Source of the DNA: Cryobacterium sp. PAMC25264
Lineage (GTDB): Bacteria > Actinomycetota > Actinomycetes > Actinomycetales > Microbacteriaceae
Assembly: GCF_019443325.1 (NCBI RefSeq)
Contig: NZ_CP080383.1
Location: forward strand, 3,286,001 to 3,350,000
Direction: 5' to 3'
DNA: 64,000 bases
Part shown: positions 31,962 to 39,951 of the stretch, piece after piece
Layout: every line of letters starts with the position of its first letter
Position numbering within the stretch: position 1 is the first letter of the stretch
Notes under the pieces: model-generated
Seen by the model: only the letters and a program-made list of their open reading frames with translations
What the model was told of the DNA's origin: nothing
The model's database searches: none
Program-made: the position numbers and the translations under genes

Positions 31962-33434
31962 TTGACGCCCGACCAGCCACGACTCGACGCACGAGCGTCC
32001 ACGGCCGAATCCGACCCGGCCCGAACATTGCGGGGCGCCTGGCTTGCCCTCGCCGGTCTGTCGGCCGTGTTCCTCATCGAGATGCTCGACAACTCGATCC
32101 TCAATGTGGCGCTGCCCACCATCGGCAGAGAGCTGCACGCGTCGACGACGGCCCTGCAGTGGGTCACCGGCGCGTACGCCGTCGTGTTCGGTGGGTTGAT
32201 GTTGGTGTTCGGCGCGATCGCCGACCGGTTCGGCCGCCGCCGGATCATGCTCATCGGGCTGGTCCTGCTGGGAGCGGCGAGTCTGGCCACCGGGTTCGTC
32301 ACGACCGCGGACCAGCTGATCTGGGTGCGAGCGGCCATGGGTGTTGCCGCAGCCATGACGACCCCCGGGTCGATGGCATTGGCCTTCCGGCTGTTCGACA
32401 CGGATGACCTGCGCGTCCGCGCGCTCACGCTCATTTCCACCGCCGGGCTTGTCGGGCTCGCGGTCGGCCCGACCGTGGGTGGGTTGGCGCTCGCGGTCGC
32501 TCCCTGGCAGGTGCTGCTCCTGGTGAACGTGCCCATCGCCGCGCTCGCCTTCGTCGGCATCCGCCTCGGTATCGCTGCCGACCTGGCGGCGGAGCTCCAC
32601 CACGATCCGATCGACAGTGTGGGAGCCGTTCTCGGCACGGCGACGATAGTGCTCGCTCTCGTCACTCCGACTCTGTACGTCGACGAGGGGTCCGGCTCCT
32701 GGGTGCCGTGGACCGGCGCCGGCGCCACGGTCGTTCTGGCGATCGCCTTCGTGGTGCGGGAACGTTCCGCCCGGGCACCACTACTCGATCTGCGTCTCCT
32801 CGCGTTGCCGCTGGTCTCCACCGGACTCGCGTACAAGGCGGCGGCCGGGCTGGCGGTGGCCGGCCTCGGCTACCTGGTGACCCTGCAGCTGCAGTTCGCC
32901 TGGGGCTGGTCGCCGGCCCTGGCGGCGGTGGGGATGCTGCCGCAGGTGGTGGTGCTGCTCGCCGGCGGTCGGTTCGTGGGGCCGGTGGTGCAGAGGCTCG
33001 GCCTGGGCCGTGCCGCGTGGATCAGCGCCGCCGCAGTGGTGCTCGGTCTCGCCGTCTTCGCCCTGTTCGGCCGGCTCGGGTACGGCGGGGTATTCATCGC
33101 GCTCGTACTTGTCGCCGCGGGGATGCGCGTGGTCGGTGTGGTCGCAGGCACCAGCGTGCTGCAGGGGCTGCCGGTCAGCCGCACCTCGATGGGCGCGGCA
33201 CTGGTGGACACCTCGAGTGAGCTCGCCACGGCTATGGGCATCACCATCACCGGCACGATCCTCGCCGCGCTCTTCACCGGGAGCATCGCTACGGTGAACT
33301 GGTCCGCCGACCAGAGCTCCCAATTCCAGACGGCGGTCACCGTGGCGGGCCTCACACTCACCATCATCGCCGCGGCGCTCGTCGCCGTCGCCGGCACCCG
33401 TTCCCGGAAGACGGCAGTCAACCCGGCCCGGTGA
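31962..33434 (+). CDS. MFS transporter, DHA2 (EmrB/QacA) family
   Basis: The TTG at 31962 is preferred because AAGGAG ends 8 bases before it; the in-frame GTG at 31953 overlaps the Shine-Dalgarno itself. This gives 490 residues with about 14 membrane helices. Motif D1 (FLIEMLDNSILNVALPTI) and motif A (ADRFGRRRIMLIG) mark a proton-driven multidrug exporter. It is convergent with the heliorhodopsin gene; 36 bases separate the stops. Confidence 0.92.
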   Translation: MTPDQPRLDARASTAESDPARTLRGAWLALAGLSAVFLIEMLDNSILNVALPTIGRELHASTTALQWVTGAYAVVFGGLMLVFGAIADRFGRRRIMLIGLVLLGAASLATGFVTTADQLIWVRAAMGVAAAMTTPGSMALAFRLFDTDDLRVRALTLISTAGLVGLAVGPTVGGLALAVAPWQVLLLVNVPIAALAFVGIRLGIAADLAAELHHDPIDSVGAVLGTATIVLALVTPTLYVDEGSGSWVPWTGAGATVVLAIAFVVRERSARAPLLDLRLLALPLVSTGLAYKAAAGLAVAGLGYLVTLQLQFAWGWSPALAAVGMLPQVVVLLAGGRFVGPVVQRLGLGRAAWISAAAVVLGLAVFALFGRLGYGGVFIALVLVAAGMRVVGVVAGTSVLQGLPVSRTSMGAALVDTSSELATAMGITITGTILAALFTGSIATVNWSADQSSQFQTAVTVAGLTLTIIAAALVAVAGTRSRKTAVNPAR

Positions 33435-33470
33435 TGCTCGCACCCGCCGGCGTTGTGGGGCTAACCCGAC

Positions 33471-34274
33471 TCAGCTGGCGATGGCGGGGATGATGGCGCC
33501 GGAGAACACCTGCCAGGCCAGCGCAGTCTTGGCCACGAGGCTCAGCGTGATGTACGTGCGTTCGCCCTGCAGATAGCTCTTCCACTTGCCCACCTGCTTG
33601 TACTGCAGCCACTGGTTGATAGCGAAGGTGTTGAAGAACACGAACAGCGAGATCACGATGCCGACAACGAAGCCGGGGGCCGCAACGTCGCTGGCGCTGC
33701 CCGGGCGCAGGAAGTAGATCAGGATCAGGATCCACGGAACGATGCCGACCATAGAACCGAAGATGAAGGGCAACAACCGGCCAGTACCGGGCTGTTCGTA
33801 CTTCTCCTGAAGTGCGCCGAACATGATCATGGCCGCGTTGACGGCGAAGACGGCGCACAGCGCGCCGATGTCGGTGACACCGTTGATCGCCAGGATCAGC
33901 CAGATCATGATGGACGAGCTCAGGGAGTACTCGACCCACCGGAAGTAGTTGTGATTGTTCAGCAGCCCGGTCTTGTAGCGGTCGAAGAACCAAGGACTCG
34001 AGATGAGGAAGTGGAAAAGAGCGCTCAGCGCGAGGAAGGCGACGACACCGACACCGATGTTCACCTCGAAGAGCGTGACTCGCTCCGGCGGGATCGGGAC
34101 CCCGGGCGGGCCGGCCAGGTAGTCCGCCGTCACGGAGAACAGAACCTGCGAGCTCAGCAGTGTGAGGATCACCGCAAAACCAATTGCCTGAACCAGGTGC
34201 AGGCTCCCGGCGACGACGTTGTAGATACGCAGCCGATCGATCTGCTGGTCCGGTGTGTAGTCCTTCTTGGCCAT
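33471..34274 (-). CDS. Heliorhodopsin
   Basis: The ATG at 34274 has a strong AAAGGAG and gives 267 residues with seven membrane helices. The helix-7 segment SLVAKTALAWQ carries Lys249, the expected retinal Schiff-base lysine. RWVEYSL in helix 3 gives Glu115, the counterion position of heliorhodopsins. His26 and His88 match the two conserved histidines of the family. Heliorhodopsins have the N-terminus inside, opposite to other rhodopsins, are not known ion pumps and probably signal or regulate. The gene lies 66 bases after terC on the same strand, so co-transcription is likely. No retinal-synthesis gene is in the window. Confidence 0.92.
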   Translation of the reverse strand: MAKKDYTPDQQIDRLRIYNVVAGSLHLVQAIGFAVILTLLSSQVLFSVTADYLAGPPGVPIPPERVTLFEVNIGVGVVAFLALSALFHFLISSPWFFDRYKTGLLNNHNYFRWVEYSLSSSIMIWLILAINGVTDIGALCAVFAVNAAMIMFGALQEKYEQPGTGRLLPFIFGSMVGIVPWILILIYFLRPGSASDVAAPGFVVGIVISLFVFFNTFAINQWLQYKQVGKWKSYLQGERTYITLSLVAKTALAWQVFSGAIIPAIAS

Positions 34275-34296
34275 GGGCCGACTCCTTTGCATCCGG

Positions 34297-34313
34297 CGGG
34301 CGTGAGCCGCCCG
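34297..34313. repeat. Hairpin between terC and heliorhodopsin genes
   Basis: CGGGCG-TGAGC-CGCCCG is a perfect 6-bp stem in the 66-base spacer. No T-tract follows in the direction of transcription, so it is a weak terminator candidate at best and may be a processing or attenuation element. Confidence 0.45.
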
Positions 34314-34340
34314 TGTGGTCATCTTGGCAGTTCCCTGGGG

Positions 34341-35351
34341 CTAGCGGGGCCGCCGGGCGAGCACCGGGCTGAGGCTGGCCACCTCGTCCGGTGTGGCATC
34401 GCGGAACATCTGGGCTCCGGTCGGCTCAACAGCTCGCCGCCCTTGCCCGCGGGTGGCGATGAGACTGGCGCCTACCGCGGCGGCGAGGATCACAATGATG
34501 ACGGCCAGCGAGACGGTGGTGGGGACCTTGACCAGGTCGTGCAGCGCCATTTTGACGCCAACCCAGATAAGGATGGCCGCCAACCCGATCTTGAGGTAAA
34601 TGAAGCGGTGGATCAGATCGGCCAGGAGGAAGTACATGGCGCGCAACCCCAGGATAGCGAAGGCGTTCGCGGTGAACACCAGGAACGCCTCGTCGGTGAC
34701 GGCGAAGATCGCGGGGATCGAGTCGATGGCGAAAATGATGTCGGTGAACTCGATGAGCACCAGCACCGCCAAGAGGGGTGTCGCCACGAGTACCCCGCCG
34801 GCTCGCACGACGAGCCGCTGCCCGTAGAAGACGTCGGTCGTAGGGACGACGCGGCGGAAGGCGCGGTAGATGCGCGATTGGGTGGGGTCGGCGTGTTCGT
34901 TGCGGCGGCGCAGCATCTGGATGCCTGTGACCACCAGGAGGGCGGCGAAGACGTAGAGAATCCATCCGAACCTCTCGATGAGCGTGGCGCCCGCGGCGAT
35001 GAAGATGCCACGGAACACCAACGCACCCACTACGCCGAGGAAGAGGATGCGGTGCTGGTACTTGGCCGGCACACCGAAGCTGGCGAAGATGATGGCCCAT
35101 ACGAACACGTTGTCGATGGCCAGAGACTTCTCGATGAGGAAGCCGGCGAAATACTGCTGACCCAGCTCGCCGCCGAAGAGCCGCCAGATGATCACGCCGA
35201 AGCTGATCCCCGAGGCAACCCAGAAGATCGACCACCCGGCCGCTTCCCTCACACCGATCACATGGGCGGTGCGGTGGGCCACGAGGTCGATGGCCAGCAT
35301 GACGACGATGACGGCACAGACGGACAGCCACGCCCAGAGCGGAACGTTCAC
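34341..35351 (-). CDS. TerC-family membrane protein (Alx-like, probable Mn2+ exporter)
   Basis: The GTG at 35351 is chosen because GGAAGG lies 9 bases upstream; a GTG nine bases earlier would abut the Shine-Dalgarno. The protein has 336 residues with about nine membrane helices. TerC motifs include EKSLAIDNVFVWAIIFA and LIEFTDIIFAIDSIPAI, whose acidic residues bind metal. Alx-type TerC proteins export manganese or load it onto secreted proteins and are classically controlled by yybP-ykoY riboswitches, exactly as seen here. The heliorhodopsin gene follows. Confidence 0.92.
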   Translation of the reverse strand: MNVPLWAWLSVCAVIVVMLAIDLVAHRTAHVIGVREAAGWSIFWVASGISFGVIIWRLFGGELGQQYFAGFLIEKSLAIDNVFVWAIIFASFGVPAKYQHRILFLGVVGALVFRGIFIAAGATLIERFGWILYVFAALLVVTGIQMLRRRNEHADPTQSRIYRAFRRVVPTTDVFYGQRLVVRAGGVLVATPLLAVLVLIEFTDIIFAIDSIPAIFAVTDEAFLVFTANAFAILGLRAMYFLLADLIHRFIYLKIGLAAILIWVGVKMALHDLVKVPTTVSLAVIIVILAAAVGASLIATRGQGRRAVEPTGAQMFRDATPDEVASLSPVLARRPR

Positions 35352-35364
35352 GGTAAGCACCCTT

Positions 35365-35393
35365 CCGAGAGGACGCACGGTGCGTCGTCTCGG
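35365..35393 (-). promoter_or_regulatory. Expression-platform hairpin of the terC riboswitch
   Basis: On the minus strand CCGAGA and TCTCGG flank an inner GACGCA/TGCGTC stem. The 5' arm overlaps the 3' strand of riboswitch helix P1 (35391-35393) and the 3' arm covers the first two bases of the Shine-Dalgarno (35361-35366). Metal-stabilised P1 would therefore compete with this hairpin and free the ribosome-binding site. Confidence 0.6.
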
Positions 35394-35480
35394 AGGTCTT
35401 TCCCGCTCGGGTCGAGCCCACATCACCGAGCCGTGGGGCCGTACTGGCGACGATGCGATTGGGGGATACTCCCCTCCTGG
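35391..35480 (-). ncRNA. yybP-ykoY-type manganese riboswitch upstream of terC
   Basis: Read on the minus strand, the leader has CCAGGAGG then GGGAGTA at its 5' side and GAAAGACC then TCCG at its 3' side. These are the two conserved loops (GGGGAGUA and AAGACC) of the yybP-ykoY class, which in known examples meet to bind Mn2+. GGAGG (35474-35478) pairs with CCTCC (35392-35396) as helix P1. A promoter is placed so that transcription would start at P1. The downstream gene is TerC, the typical target. Confidence 0.85.
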
Positions 35481-35485
35481 CAACT

Positions 35486-35515
35486 ATCAGATCATGGGAT
35501 TTGCCGACCCGTCAA
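35486..35515 (-). promoter_or_regulatory. Predicted terC promoter
   Basis: On the minus strand TTGACG (35510-35515) and TCTGAT (35486-35491) are separated by 18 bases. Start of transcription would fall close to 35480, at the 5' edge of the riboswitch. Confidence 0.5.
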
Positions 35516-35525
35516 GAGGTCAAGA

Positions 35526-36815
35526 TCAGAGTTTGCCGAGCGCCGCCGGCACCGTGTCCAGCCTGACGGTCACGGAACCGGCACCGGCCTCCAGGTCCAC
35601 CTCCGCAGACCCGGCCGGGGTGTCGATGAGGTACCGGCCGGCGAAGCCCCGCACCAACACGACACCGTCGGCATCCGTCGCCGTGCGCGTCTCGGGGTGC
35701 CACCACTCGCCGCGCACCAGCGCGTGCAGGGCATCGTAGGCGGGCTTCCTGGTGCCGTCCCGCCGGATCAGCCCAGACGGTGCGCCGAGCCAGGCCCCGT
35801 GATCGGTGATCCCCCAGTAGGTCAGCGACTCCACCGCGGGGTGCGACACCACAGTTCGGTAGTGGCGCACGATCTCGTCAGCCTGGCGGGCCTCCCCTGC
35901 GGGAGTCGACGGCCACGACTCCGGCTGGTAGTCGTTGAGGTCCACGATGTGTGCGGGCATCAAATCGCCCGACAGCAGCGTCGTTTCGGTCAGCTGCAGC
36001 GGCAGCCCGAACCGGGCGAACCGTTCCAGGATCCCCCACACCTGCTCCTCGCCCCGGTACCCCTGGTGCATGTGGGTCTGCAGTCCGATCGCGTCGATCC
36101 GGATGCCCGCCGACAGGCAGTCGTCGATCAGCCTCTCGTAATCGGCGGAGAGGTCGAAGTCGTTGAGTACCAGCCGGGCGTCCGGGTTCGCGGCCCGCGC
36201 CTCCTCGAACGCCAACCGCACCATTCCCACTCGGCCCAGGCGCTGGGCGAGCCGGGTCACGGCGTTGTCCTCCGCGGTGAAGACCGGCAAGATCACCACC
36301 TCGTTGATCGCGTCCCACAGGTCCACAACACCCGCGAAGTCGGTGACCTCGCGGCGGATTCGCTCACGGATAGCCTCTTCGACCCCCGTGTCGCTGAGCT
36401 CGAGCAGCCACTCCGGGGCCAGGGTGTGCCAGAGCAGCGGGTGCCCCTTGACGGTGACCCCGCGCGCAGCGAACCACTCGGCCGTGCGGCGGAGACGCTC
36501 GGTGTCAGGCCGGCCGCGTTCCGGCTCGAAGCCGCGCCAGTAGAAGGGCAGCGTCATGGTGTTGAACAGGCCCAGCCAGTCTTCAGCCAGGGCGGCCGGG
36601 TCCGGCGCCGGCTGGCCACCGAACACGTCCGACGGCCGTGCCTGACCAGAACGCGAGGGTCCGCCGAGCCAGTCGATGAAGTCGAAGCCGATGTTGCCGA
36701 ATCCGAACGCCTGCCGGGTCTGTTCGACCGAAACCGTGCTGTCGGCAACAGGCCGACCCCACGAATCGAGCAGGCGAACGCGTGCATCCGCACAGCGGTG
36801 GGTGAGTTCAGGCAC
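35526..36815 (-). CDS. GH10-like endo-1,4-beta-xylanase
   Basis: The GTG at 36815 has AAGGA eight bases upstream and gives 429 residues. A short N-terminal beta domain (about 1-45) precedes the GH10 barrel: GHPLLWH, WDAINE with acid/base Glu172, THMHQGYRG, and nucleophile Glu277 in QLTETTL. About 60 C-terminal residues form a small beta domain. No signal peptide is visible, so it probably acts in the cytosol on imported xylo-oligosaccharides or plant glycosides rather than on polymeric xylan. No transporter is adjacent. Confidence 0.85.
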   Translation of the reverse strand: MPELTHRCADARVRLLDSWGRPVADSTVSVEQTRQAFGFGNIGFDFIDWLGGPSRSGQARPSDVFGGQPAPDPAALAEDWLGLFNTMTLPFYWRGFEPERGRPDTERLRRTAEWFAARGVTVKGHPLLWHTLAPEWLLELSDTGVEEAIRERIRREVTDFAGVVDLWDAINEVVILPVFTAEDNAVTRLAQRLGRVGMVRLAFEEARAANPDARLVLNDFDLSADYERLIDDCLSAGIRIDAIGLQTHMHQGYRGEEQVWGILERFARFGLPLQLTETTLLSGDLMPAHIVDLNDYQPESWPSTPAGEARQADEIVRHYRTVVSHPAVESLTYWGITDHGAWLGAPSGLIRRDGTRKPAYDALHALVRGEWWHPETRTATDADGVVLVRGFAGRYLIDTPAGSAEVDLEAGAGSVTVRLDTVPAALGKL

Positions 36816-36946
36816 GACGGTGTCCTTCGATACGGGGCGATCTCCCTGAAACCTACCGGCCGGTGCCCGAGCAGCCCAGGCTTTTCGGCGCACTTTCGAG
36901 GTGTGGGTGCTGTCTCGGGCGACTACCGGCGCACCGGGCGCGAGCG

Positions 36947-37548
36947 CTAGATCAGCGGGCGCTTCTCCACCTGCTCGTAGCTCCGGCTGGCGTCGACCCG
37001 GGCCGCCCAGAGCACGGTCTGCCCGGTGGCTAAGGACTTCTGTACGTCGATGATGCGCTGGTTGCTGCTGCCCCGGAACTGCAGGCGCAGGTCCTTCCGC
37101 GCCTCATCGAAGGGCCCGTCCACGAGTACGTCGATCAGGCCGAGCAGCTCGAGCTTGTCGGGGCTGTCGAGCAGCAGCTCCTCGAAGACGTACCCCGTCC
37201 ACGACCAGATGTCCTTGGCACCGCCGAACTCTGCGCGCACCCTGCGCACGAGCGACAGGCACACCCGGTGTTCAGGAACGGCTCGCCGCCGAGCAGGGTG
37301 AGGCCCTGCACGTACGGCTGGGCCAGGTCGGAGAGGATCCGGTCTTCGAGCTCGGCCGTGTACGGGGTGCCGTAGCGAAAATTCCAGGTGGCCCGGTTGA
37401 AGCAGCCCTCGCAGGCGAACAGGCATCCGCTCACGTAGAGGCTGCAGCGCACACCCTCGCCGTCGACGAACATGAACGGTTTGTAGTCGCCGACGAAGCC
37501 CTGGCTGAGCTTGTCGGCGAGCCATTCCCCGGGCTGCGGATGCCGCAT
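36947..37548 (-). pseudogene. nrdG: Anaerobic ribonucleoside-triphosphate reductase activating protein NrdG, one-base frameshift
   Basis: From the ATG at 37548 the first 95 or so residues are NrdG: the radical-SAM motif Cx3Cx2C is SGCLFACEGCFN, followed by TLLGGEPFLNTG. The frame then shifts; the remainder (VCLSLVRRVRAEFG onward) continues in another frame to 36947. One extra G in the GGG run near 37266-37268 would restore a continuous protein of about 199 residues. As written the activase loses its C-terminal half and NrdD could not be activated. It lies 1 base after the nrdD stop. Confidence 0.88.
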
Positions 37549-37549
37549 C

Positions 37550-39799
37550 CTAGAGCGAGCCGCTTGACCCGGTGGCGCCGGCCATGTGCTTGACCCTGGA
37601 GACGATCTCCTGGTGGCGGCCGTGCACCATCGGGCGGGCCTGCGGGTTGCCGAGGTAGCCGCAGGTGCGCTTGACCACATCGCAGCTGGCCGGGTCGTCG
37701 TTACCGCAGTCGGGGCAGGCGAAACCACGATCGGTCGGGGTGAAGTCGCCGGCGAAATCGCATTTGTAGCAGCGGTCGATGGGGGTATTGGTGCCCAGGT
37801 AACCCACCCGGTCGTAGGCGTAGTCCCAGACCGCCTCGAGGGCCTTGGGGTTCTGCTGCAGCACCGGGTACTCGCAGTAGTGGATGAAGCCGCCGGAGGA
37901 GAACACCGGGTAGTCCTTCTCGAAGTCGAGCTTCTCGAACGGGGTCGGGTTCTTGCGCACGTCGTAGTGGAAGCTGTTCGTGTAGTAATCCTTGTCGGTG
38001 ATGTTCTCCACCGAACCGAACTTGGCCTTGTCGAGGCGGGAGAACCGGTCGGTCAGGCTCTCACTCGGAGTCGAATAGACGCTGAACTGGTAGCCGTACT
38101 CGGCGGTCCACGCCTTGGTGTGCGCGTCGAGGGACTTGAGGATGTCAAGCGTGAACGCCTTCGCCTCGGCGTCGCCCTCCCAGGCGCCGCCGAAGAAGGC
38201 CGCGGCCACCTCGTAGAGGCCGATGTAGCCCAGCGAGACCGTGGAGCGGCCGTCCTTGAAGAGGGTGTCGACCGAGTCGGTGCGGGCCAACTGCTGGCCG
38301 AACGCTCCGTAGACGTAGAGGATCGGGGCGTTGGCGGGGGTCGCCTGCTTGCACCGTTCGATGCGGTAGACGAGCGCGTCACGGGTGATGGCCAGGCGCT
38401 CCTCGAGGATACTCCAGAACTTCGCTTGGTCGCCGGCGGCCTCCAGGGCGATGCGGGGCAGGTTCACCGTGACCACGCCCAGGTTCATCCGCCCCTCGGA
38501 GACGTCGTTGCCGTCGGCGTCTCTCCAGCCCTGCAGGAAGGAGCGGCAGCCCATCGGCACCTTGAAGCTGCCGGTGATGTCGATGAGCTTGTCGTAGCTG
38601 AGCACATCCGGGTACATGCGTTTGGTCGAGCACTCCAGGGCGAGCTGTTTGATGTCGTAGTTCGGGTCGCCCTCGGCGAGGTTGAGGCCGCGTTTAAGGG
38701 TGAAGATGAGCTTGGGGAAGATGGCGGTGCGCTTCTCGCTGCCGAGCCCGTCGATGCGGATCTGCAGGATCGCCCGCTGGATCTCCCGCTCGAACCAGTC
38801 GGTTCCCAGCCCGAAACCGAGAGAGACGAACGGGGTCTGTCCGTTGGAGGTGAACAGGGTGTTGATCTCGTACTCGAGGCTCTGCATCGCGTCGTAGATG
38901 TCCTTGCGGGTCTTCTCCTCGGCGTAGGCGGTGTGCTGGGACTCGTCGGCGATCCACGTGTGGGCGTCGGCGAGGTGCTTGGCGTAGTTGGCCCGGGCGT
39001 AGGGGGCCAGGAGTTCGTCGGTGCGGTTGGCGGAGCATCCGCCGTACTGGCTGGACGCCACGTTGGCGATGATCTGCGAGATCTGCGCGGTAGCGGTCTG
39101 GATGGAGCGGGGCGGCTCAACGTCGGCGTTGCCGATCCGGAAACCACGGCTGAGCATGCCCGTGAAGTCGATCAGGCAGCAGTTGGTCATGGGCGCGTAG
39201 GGGCTGTAGTCCAGGTCGTGAAAGTGGATGTCGCCCTTCTGGTGCGCGTTGGAGACGTGGGAGGGCAGCATCTTGTGGCCGATGGCCTTGCCCACAGCGC
39301 CGGCGGTGAGGTCGCGCTGGGTGTTGAAGACGTCGCTGTCTTTGTTGGCGTTCTCGTTCACCACGCTCGAGTCTTTGCTGAGCAGGTTGATGATCGAGTG
39401 GTTGATGTCGGTGGACTTGCTGCGGGCGAAATCACGCTGGGTGCGGTAACCGATGTACTTCTCGGCCAGGTCGTATTCGTGGCTTTCGAGCAGCGCGTGC
39501 TCCACGATGTTCTGCACCTCGTAGATCTTGATGTCGGTGGTGAACCGGCCAGCGATCTCCCGGTCGACCGCGGCGACGATGTCGACGATCGCCCGGTGCA
39601 CCAGCGGGTTCATGTCACGGTGGATCTCCACGGCCGCCTTGACCAGGGCCTCGTACACCTTGGTGTTGTCGAAGGGCACCCGGCGACCGTCGCGTTTGAC
39701 GACCTGGATGGCGTTCAGCACCGGCGCGGCGAGCGTGTGGGCGACGGCGTCGTCGCGGGTGGCAGTGGTCTGGGCCGGGGCGCTGATGGGTGAATTCAC
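37550..39799 (-). CDS. nrdD: Anaerobic ribonucleoside-triphosphate reductase NrdD (class III)
   Basis: The GTG at 39799 gives 749 residues. An ATP-cone allosteric domain occupies about residues 28-120. The catalytic barrel follows, with the C-terminal zinc-binding Cys pairs (CYKC and CPDC) and the glycyl-radical motif RTCGYLG (Gly714). It makes dNTPs without oxygen and needs the NrdG activase encoded immediately downstream. Putative NrdR boxes lie upstream. It implies that the host meets anoxia. Confidence 0.96.
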   Translation of the reverse strand: MNSPISAPAQTTATRDDAVAHTLAAPVLNAIQVVKRDGRRVPFDNTKVYEALVKAAVEIHRDMNPLVHRAIVDIVAAVDREIAGRFTTDIKIYEVQNIVEHALLESHEYDLAEKYIGYRTQRDFARSKSTDINHSIINLLSKDSSVVNENANKDSDVFNTQRDLTAGAVGKAIGHKMLPSHVSNAHQKGDIHFHDLDYSPYAPMTNCCLIDFTGMLSRGFRIGNADVEPPRSIQTATAQISQIIANVASSQYGGCSANRTDELLAPYARANYAKHLADAHTWIADESQHTAYAEEKTRKDIYDAMQSLEYEINTLFTSNGQTPFVSLGFGLGTDWFEREIQRAILQIRIDGLGSEKRTAIFPKLIFTLKRGLNLAEGDPNYDIKQLALECSTKRMYPDVLSYDKLIDITGSFKVPMGCRSFLQGWRDADGNDVSEGRMNLGVVTVNLPRIALEAAGDQAKFWSILEERLAITRDALVYRIERCKQATPANAPILYVYGAFGQQLARTDSVDTLFKDGRSTVSLGYIGLYEVAAAFFGGAWEGDAEAKAFTLDILKSLDAHTKAWTAEYGYQFSVYSTPSESLTDRFSRLDKAKFGSVENITDKDYYTNSFHYDVRKNPTPFEKLDFEKDYPVFSSGGFIHYCEYPVLQQNPKALEAVWDYAYDRVGYLGTNTPIDRCYKCDFAGDFTPTDRGFACPDCGNDDPASCDVVKRTCGYLGNPQARPMVHGRHQEIVSRVKHMAGATGSSGSL

Positions 39800-39831
39800 G
39801 CTCTCAGCATAGGGACGGCGACGCCGCAAAA

Positions 39832-39879
39832 TCACTATATTTGGGTGCCGTTGGTCCCTAGCGCCGCTACATGTAGTGG
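39832..39879. promoter_or_regulatory. Candidate NrdR-box pair upstream of nrdD
   Basis: Box 1 (39832-39847) begins TCACTATATTT and box 2 (39864-39879) is CCGCTACATGTAGTGG. Aligned to the NrdR consensus ACACWATATATWGTGT they match at about 10 and 11 of 16 positions. Their centres are 32 bases apart, three helical turns, as in known NrdR promoters. Confidence 0.5.
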
Positions 39880-39951
39880 TCGGGTTGTCGAGATGGCCGG
39901 AAACACGCCGTGCGATCCGGCCGCGGATTCCGGTGCACATGTGTGCATCTC

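Follow-up and report, generated by a model that had tools for sequence, protein, structure and literature searches.

In Cryobacterium sp. PAMC25264, a heliorhodopsin gene (HeR) lies downstream of a terC gene whose leader appears to belong to the manganese-type yybP-ykoY class, and the pairing of HeR with TerC recurs in other genomes. Based on the analyses described here, this recurrent association is genuine, and a reading of the locus as a single Mn2+-driven operon is doubtful. The reading that we prefer, which is plausible but tentative, is that a manganese-controlled TerC/Alx protein is paired with a HeR that would be transcribed mainly on its own, the two proteins being functionally linked in one process. 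New here are a linkage above chance, its occurrence in all gene orientations, and the participation of different TerC lineages; the adjacency itself is already in print. The window is the whole stretch of DNA that was analyzed (64,000 nucleotides of contig NZ_CP080383.1), and its features at this locus are as follows.

33471 to 34274, minus strand: HeR gene, 267 aa, with an ATG start (MAKKDY...) common to relatives; identified by PF18761, NF038020, and 48C12 relatives in the PDB.
34275 to 34340, minus strand: gap between terC and HeR, containing the presumed HeR control block, with promoter-like TGCCAAGAT at 34329-34321 and the Shine-Dalgarno-like AAAGGAG at 34288-34282.
34341 to 35351, minus strand: terC gene of the Alx subfamily (TerC-H clade), 336 aa, presumed GTG start; TIGR03718, PF03741.
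35352 to 35478, minus strand: predicted yybP-ykoY-class (Mn2+) leader of terC, with the GGGGAGTA motif and P1 GGAGG/CCTCC; identified by covariance model R1 and covariation in relatives.
35361 to 35396, minus strand: hairpin of the P1 3' strand with the terC ribosome-binding region (GGAAGG), the presumed OFF state; ViennaRNA.
35486 to 35515, minus strand: promoter-like pair TTGACG-18-TCTGAT of terC (TTGACG at 35515-35510, TCTGAT at 35491-35486; 9/12 bases).

In profile searches, the HeR product matched PF18761 (E 2e-94) and NF038020 (345 bits, cut-off 100), and its best solved relative in a PDB comparison was the 48C12 heliorhodopsin (297 bits). When the alignment was read by eye, K249, E115, H26, and H88 of the window protein (267-aa numbering) fell opposite K241, E107, H23, and H80 of 48C12; we take these to be the Schiff-base lysine, the counter-ion glutamate, and the two characteristic histidines. 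By its profile matches and these residues the protein is assigned as a heliorhodopsin, as the initial annotation had proposed for a seven-helix protein with Lys249, Glu115, and both histidines. Its closest named relative is the HeR of C. zongtaii (97% identity). A longer HeR start (ATG at 34322, 283 aa) is disfavored because the equivalent ATG in the related locus L043, counted by eye, is out of frame.

The terC product scored 393.6 bits against TIGR03718 (TerC/Alx; cut-off 246.4), which places it in that family. HeR sits downstream of terC on the same strand, with 66 nt (34275-34340) between the terC stop and the HeR ATG, and a terminator scan returned 0 intrinsic-terminator-like sites in 33300-35700, hence none between the two genes, so that the arrangement described initially is borne out. 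The promoter that had been placed ahead of terC is seen as the pair listed above, which is absent from the list of a generic promoter scan. When the source genome was searched whole (4.06 Mb, one contig), one HeR gene and three TerC/Alx genes were found, and the HeR-linked TerC has just 41% and 44% identity to the other two. Upstream of terC, window positions 35526-39940 contain a GH10-like gene (by family profile) and genes whose translations resemble an anaerobic ribonucleotide reductase and its activator.

The initial annotation had also placed a yybP-ykoY-type leader ahead of terC. Rfam RF00080 gives no call on this sequence at the gathering score (45 bits) or at E<=10, and its cut-off is reached in 0/40 related genomes, the source genome included. 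A covariance model, R1, was built from 23 other leaders (5/23 from the same genus), drawn from 25 motif-bearing leaders among 40 TerC copies examined upstream, with the window and locus L154 left out. R1 finds the leader at 35346-35478 on the minus strand (60.3 bits, E 6.5e-13) and also matches the E. coli alx leader, which was not in the training set (35.4 bits, E 9.8e-7); E. coli mntP, which we take to be an accepted yybP-ykoY riboswitch member, was not matched at E<=10. A search of the whole genome at E<=1, which scored 150 of 7163 first-look candidates, gave three R1 matches, and these are the three terC leaders, the third being weak (25.8 bits). Leaders with the GGGGAGTA motif precede all three terC genes of the source genome and, with GAGGAGTA permitted, 25 of the 40 TerC copies examined (window included). 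In the 23 aligned leaders the consensus fold has 24 pairs, with both-side changes in 15; pairing cells amount to 94.0% and the covariation score to 0.456, where shuffles gave 79.4% and 0.178. Because a model built from other loci matches the window as well as E. coli alx, though not mntP, the reading from Rfam alone that there is no leader was set aside, and the sequence is treated as a yybP-ykoY-class leader below the Rfam score, with Mn2+ presumed from the class as its ligand. Mn2+ is the reported ligand of the yybP-ykoY class (PMC13274385), and an Rfam-called leader of this class is in print for the C. glutamicum terC gene cg2157 (PMC3890552).

Other sequences were noticed by eye upstream of TerC-H genes. 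Palindrome-like sequences, for example TGAAGCATGCTTCA, occur at the TerC-H promoter region in L157 (G316), L163, L172, L174, L178, L190, and L067; in L157, which has the closest TerC outside the window's tree group, they are present without the riboswitch motif. Their form suggests an operator, perhaps one bound by a metal-responsive repressor and possibly exchangeable with the riboswitch. In small-genome relatives (L156, L168, L169, L173, L176, L184, L187, L192, and L193), TerC-H genes without the riboswitch motif have an AT-rich near-palindrome just upstream (e.g. AATAATATTCAGTAAT).

In the window leader, the P1 3' strand (CCTCC) has two pairing options, one with the 5' GGAGG, as in the aptamer, and one inside the hairpin that takes in the ribosome-binding region; the energies calculated with ViennaRNA are -60.3 kcal/mol with the hairpin and -52.9 kcal/mol with P1 enforced. 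In 25/25 leaders the free ensemble shows three or more of the five P1 3' bases paired to the 30 nt preceding the start codon, and enforcing P1 left the ribosome-binding site more unpaired in 22 of the 24 enforceable leaders (mean 0.11 to 0.52). The exceptions are L171 and the window itself (unpaired 0.29 free, 0.25 with P1), whose site is not opened because it pairs with the first codons in the P1-enforced fold. The OFF state is well supported by these modeled folds, and the ON state of the window leader is proposed only by analogy. Because the leader can mask the terC ribosome-binding site, TerC translation is the most likely step of its action, and, since no intrinsic terminator was found in the scan, it reads as translational control; the element looks like a switch that is local to terC and presumably ON with Mn2+.

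The same features bear on the proposal of a single Mn2+-controlled operon, in which one transcript from the TTGACG promoter would carry both terC and HeR, and HeR would go up with manganese. Consistent with this proposal, a TerC family gene stands next to HeR on the same strand, as in the HeR-TerC operon group, across a 66-nt gap in which no intrinsic terminator was found, and the arrangement and leader are kept in L034, L036, L213, L215, and L216 (some of them perhaps duplicate strains) and in the far relative L154. What weighs against it is that terC translation seems to be the target of the switch and that, where one promoter would be expected, a second promoter-like block and a Shine-Dalgarno-like sequence of HeR's own are seen in the gap.

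This TGCCAAGAT block lies 47-55 nt upstream of the window HeR ATG. Across 74 related loci (80 minus L109-L113, in which the match begins inside the protein, and minus L090, which is too short), 34 have TGNTANNNT at most 75 nt upstream of the HeR start; a control of mononucleotide shuffles only puts the expected number at 2.1. These are not 34 independent events, because the loci are related; 31 of the 34 lie within L034-L074 and 3 in L075-L108 (mostly small-genome lineages). Six window-lineage HeR loci with TerC nearby (L034-L036, L039, L043, and L044) have TGCCAAGAT instead of TGNTANNNT, 51-55 nt upstream, and L046 and L048, which are without TerC, carry TGCCATGAT. Of the TerC-linked loci in the genus set, 9/10 have TGCCAAGAT and L199 has TGCTAGTGT; TGCCAAGAT is also kept in L217, where terC is lost. 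The putative HeR promoter may be weak, because its presumed -10 hexamer starts with C and not T, and terC read-through could contribute as well. By eye, the terC-HeR gap of L154 (about 135 nt) is very C-rich and G-poor, resembling a Rho-utilization stretch.

Because HeR has this promoter-like block in the gap, its obligatory control by manganese is doubtful. The earlier suggestion that HeR is expressed under high manganese is weakened by the apparent confinement of the switch to terC, by the promoter-like and Shine-Dalgarno-like sequences of HeR, and by L035 and L217, in which the block and HeR stayed intact although deletions took most of terC with some of the leader (L035) or both terC and leader (L217). 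Moreover, HeR cannot share a terC transcript in L156, L199, L223, and L225, because these pairs are convergent or divergent, and on this evidence we regard the single operon as improbable. Separate promoters for the two genes, which the initial annotation had named as an argument against its own proposal, are indicated in part, by the second promoter-like block. In the freshwater bacterium Aurantimicrobium photophilum, HeR mRNA is reported to go up in the dark along with carotenoid genes (PMC8591293), which fits HeR regulation of its own.

HeR was found in 33 of 57 genomes of the genus Cryobacterium. Within the flanks examined, a TerC-H gene or its remains lies beside HeR in 10 of these 33, and 23 are without a TerC neighbor; the survey took in 45 HeR loci, second HeR copies included, and some of the 10 may be the same strains as named-genome loci of the other set. 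The TerC-linked Cryobacterium loci are arranged as follows.

terC to HeR in tandem, seven loci: L001 (the window), L213, L214 (remnant), L215, L216, L218, and L226.
terC and HeR convergent, two loci: L223 and L225 (broken terC).
terC and HeR divergent, one locus: L199.

R1 matches a leader in all nine of these loci besides the window, that of L214 being truncated (27 bits). Outside the genus, Arthrobacter sp. H16F315 (L067) has the order HeR to terC, G181 (L156) has a convergent pair, and G879 (L154), a member of another family, has the order terC to HeR; in G742 a smaller TerC-family gene lies behind HeR by its coordinates. Among the best 80 HeR loci of named genomes, a TerC match was present in the flanks fetched for nine; in two of the nine, L075 and L099, TerC is not immediate or is of another type (3 kb and 0.4 kb off). 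G412, G1178, G404, G400, and other Cryobacterium have a second, more divergent HeR-family gene (about 120-285 bits), whose examined flanks are free of TerC, and G412 has three HeR matches covering the full profile.

Counting terC adjacency against a random background, as the initial annotation had advised, gave a number above expectation. Adjacency was seen in 2/67 sampled HeR genomes of the family and 2/124 of the order and phylum. This count leaves out 8 of 108 phylum HeR genomes, in which the match is fragmentary or carries a stop, and 13 family genomes whose HeR matches are all weak but whose TerC-H positions were inspected. The 4 cases with the window, or 3 without it, compare with 0.205 expected by random placement (P(>=3) = 0.0012). 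The calculation assumes random gene order, adjacency was scored by eye in tables of coordinates, and the genomes, being related, are not independent. Chance adjacency is disfavored by this count. TerC was also the commonest Pfam family among 83 immediate-neighbor proteins of HeR, with 8 (window's included) followed by GNAT acetyltransferase with 5, in a tally made with a crude gene finder from 43/44 loci, L155 missing. TerC-H itself is patchy (38/398 family genomes); HeR is present in 19 of the 38 family genomes with TerC-H and 61 of the 360 without, a comparison inflated by shared ancestry, and the two genes are adjacent in only two of the family genomes having both. The conserved adjacency sought in relatives is patchy, yet it recurs.

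In the trees, neither the TerC-linked HeRs nor the HeR-linked TerCs form one clade, and TerC-HeR adjacency is shown computationally, from the sequences, to have arisen more than once. L154 and L155 are on very long branches and the HeR bootstrap had not settled; after duplicate removal the G181 pair (L016) lies outside the labeled groups, so that the change counts of 5 and 6 omit it, and L075 and L099 are labeled in the TerC tree only. The L154 proteins have 40% (HeR) and 58% (TerC) identity to those of the window, and gene order and leader match. The L043 HeR is sister to the window HeR group (support 99/87), whereas the L043 TerC groups with the L039 TerC and those of other genera, apart from the window TerC, which groups with the TerCs of L034, L036, and G316.

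A scar of the 3' end of window-type terC was found upstream of HeR, at matching distance, in L039 (38, the best shuffle giving 29) and L043 (36, best shuffle 31), each with 200 shuffles. With the same number of shuffles, the scar was not above shuffles in L044 (29 versus 31) or in seven loci of other arrangements (L037, L040, L042, L046, L048, L050, and L053). L039 and L043 both have a different TerC nearby, and the simplest reading is that this lineage lost the old terC and another TerC came to lie nearby; of all the observations, this one hints most strongly at selection for linkage. Losses were seen in other loci. In L035 (Cryobacterium sp. 1639), a deletion has taken most of terC together with some of the leader, with HeR and the promoter-like block intact, and the L214 remnant is the same. 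In L217, terC is gone but for its scar (57 versus 33 in 100 shuffles), HeR and the TGCCAAGAT block are intact, and R1 finds no leader; by eye, this scar comes after sequence resembling a ribonucleotide reductase activator gene. Beside HeR, terC is broken in L044 and L225, and in L218 HeR has an internal stop alongside an intact terC. Because an intact HeR can remain where terC is lost, and a TerC neighbor is missing from most HeR genes, the pairing appears favored but not obligatory.

These losses on both sides, the patchiness of TerC-H, and the many HeR genes without TerC would also be expected if there were no functional link, HeR and TerC-H being accessory cargo that gathers in the same flexible regions. 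Such gathering is harder to reconcile with adjacency above random placement, with TerC as the top neighbor family of HeR, and with a TerC of another lineage near HeR where window-type terC left its scar, and we consider it a rather unlikely explanation that keeps some weight.

In the preferred reading, that of a manganese-controlled TerC/Alx functionally linked to a largely self-transcribed HeR, Mn2+ would stabilize the aptamer and raise TerC translation, and HeR would be produced chiefly from a promoter of its own, supplemented by terC read-through. The two proteins would serve one process, given that their genes are linked repeatedly, in every orientation and with TerCs of different lineages. 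In its likeliest form, HeR would be a light-dependent, non-essential modulator of Mn2+ handling by TerC under photo-oxidative stress, either of export or of the loading of exported enzymes, by a putative HeR-TerC interaction analogous to the action of HeR on the neighboring ABC transporter OmrDE. A stronger version, possible but on the unlikely side, is that HeR is a light-driven regulator of TerC-H in a light-tuned manganese module, in which the riboswitch would set the amount of TerC by Mn2+, HeR would set its activity by light, and selection would rebuild the linkage with new TerC lineages and orientations.

To our knowledge, most heliorhodopsins are without a known function. The window HeR has a neighbor with a defined likely ligand (Mn2+) and a readable RNA sensor, and natural variants are on hand in which terC is lost, a different TerC is nearby, HeR is broken, or the genes take every orientation; together these allow a concrete test of light-tuned metal handling by a heliorhodopsin. 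The recurrent pairing makes a light-manganese link, which we infer from sequence comparison, directly testable.

The initial annotation knew of no described heliorhodopsin-TerC system, a statement that does not hold: in its account of helR operons, Cho et al. (2024) (PMC11109279) lists TerC family proteins as one of ten frequent operon-neighbor groups. This was the only open-licence PMC paper found with both "heliorhodopsin" and "TerC", and none was found with both "heliorhodopsin" and "riboswitch"; the terms "riboswitch", "Cryobacterium", and "Mn2+" are absent from the main text of Cho et al. (2024). Its reported experiments concern HeR and OmrDE, the adjoining ABC transporter that HeR modulates. 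Bulzu et al. (2021) (PMC8612252) describes oxidative-stress neighbors of HeR under a <10 bp rule, which the 66-nt gap of the window would fail. TerC proteins elsewhere are reported to act in manganese detoxification and in metalation during secretion (PMC13274385, PMC10550928).

The window leader appears to share the GGGGAGTA motif, P1, and a site before terC with RF00080 and with the E. coli alx and C. glutamicum cg2157 leaders. It is unlike RF00080 members in scoring under the Rfam cut-off, in belonging to a model (R1) that misses E. coli mntP, in its translational-looking platform, and in having a HeR gene downstream. Like OcHeR-OmrDE and other reported HeR-neighbor pairs (PMC11109279, PMC9529153, PMC9769723), the window HeR is encoded beside a protein that it may regulate; unlike OcHeR with OmrDE, its partner is TerC and the interaction is putative. 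As in the helR operons listed by Cho et al. (2024), the window HeR has a TerC family gene as its neighbor in a predicted operon, and beyond what is described there, the evidence from HeR's own promoter-like block, from the terC scars, and from the multiple gene orientations comes from the present analysis.
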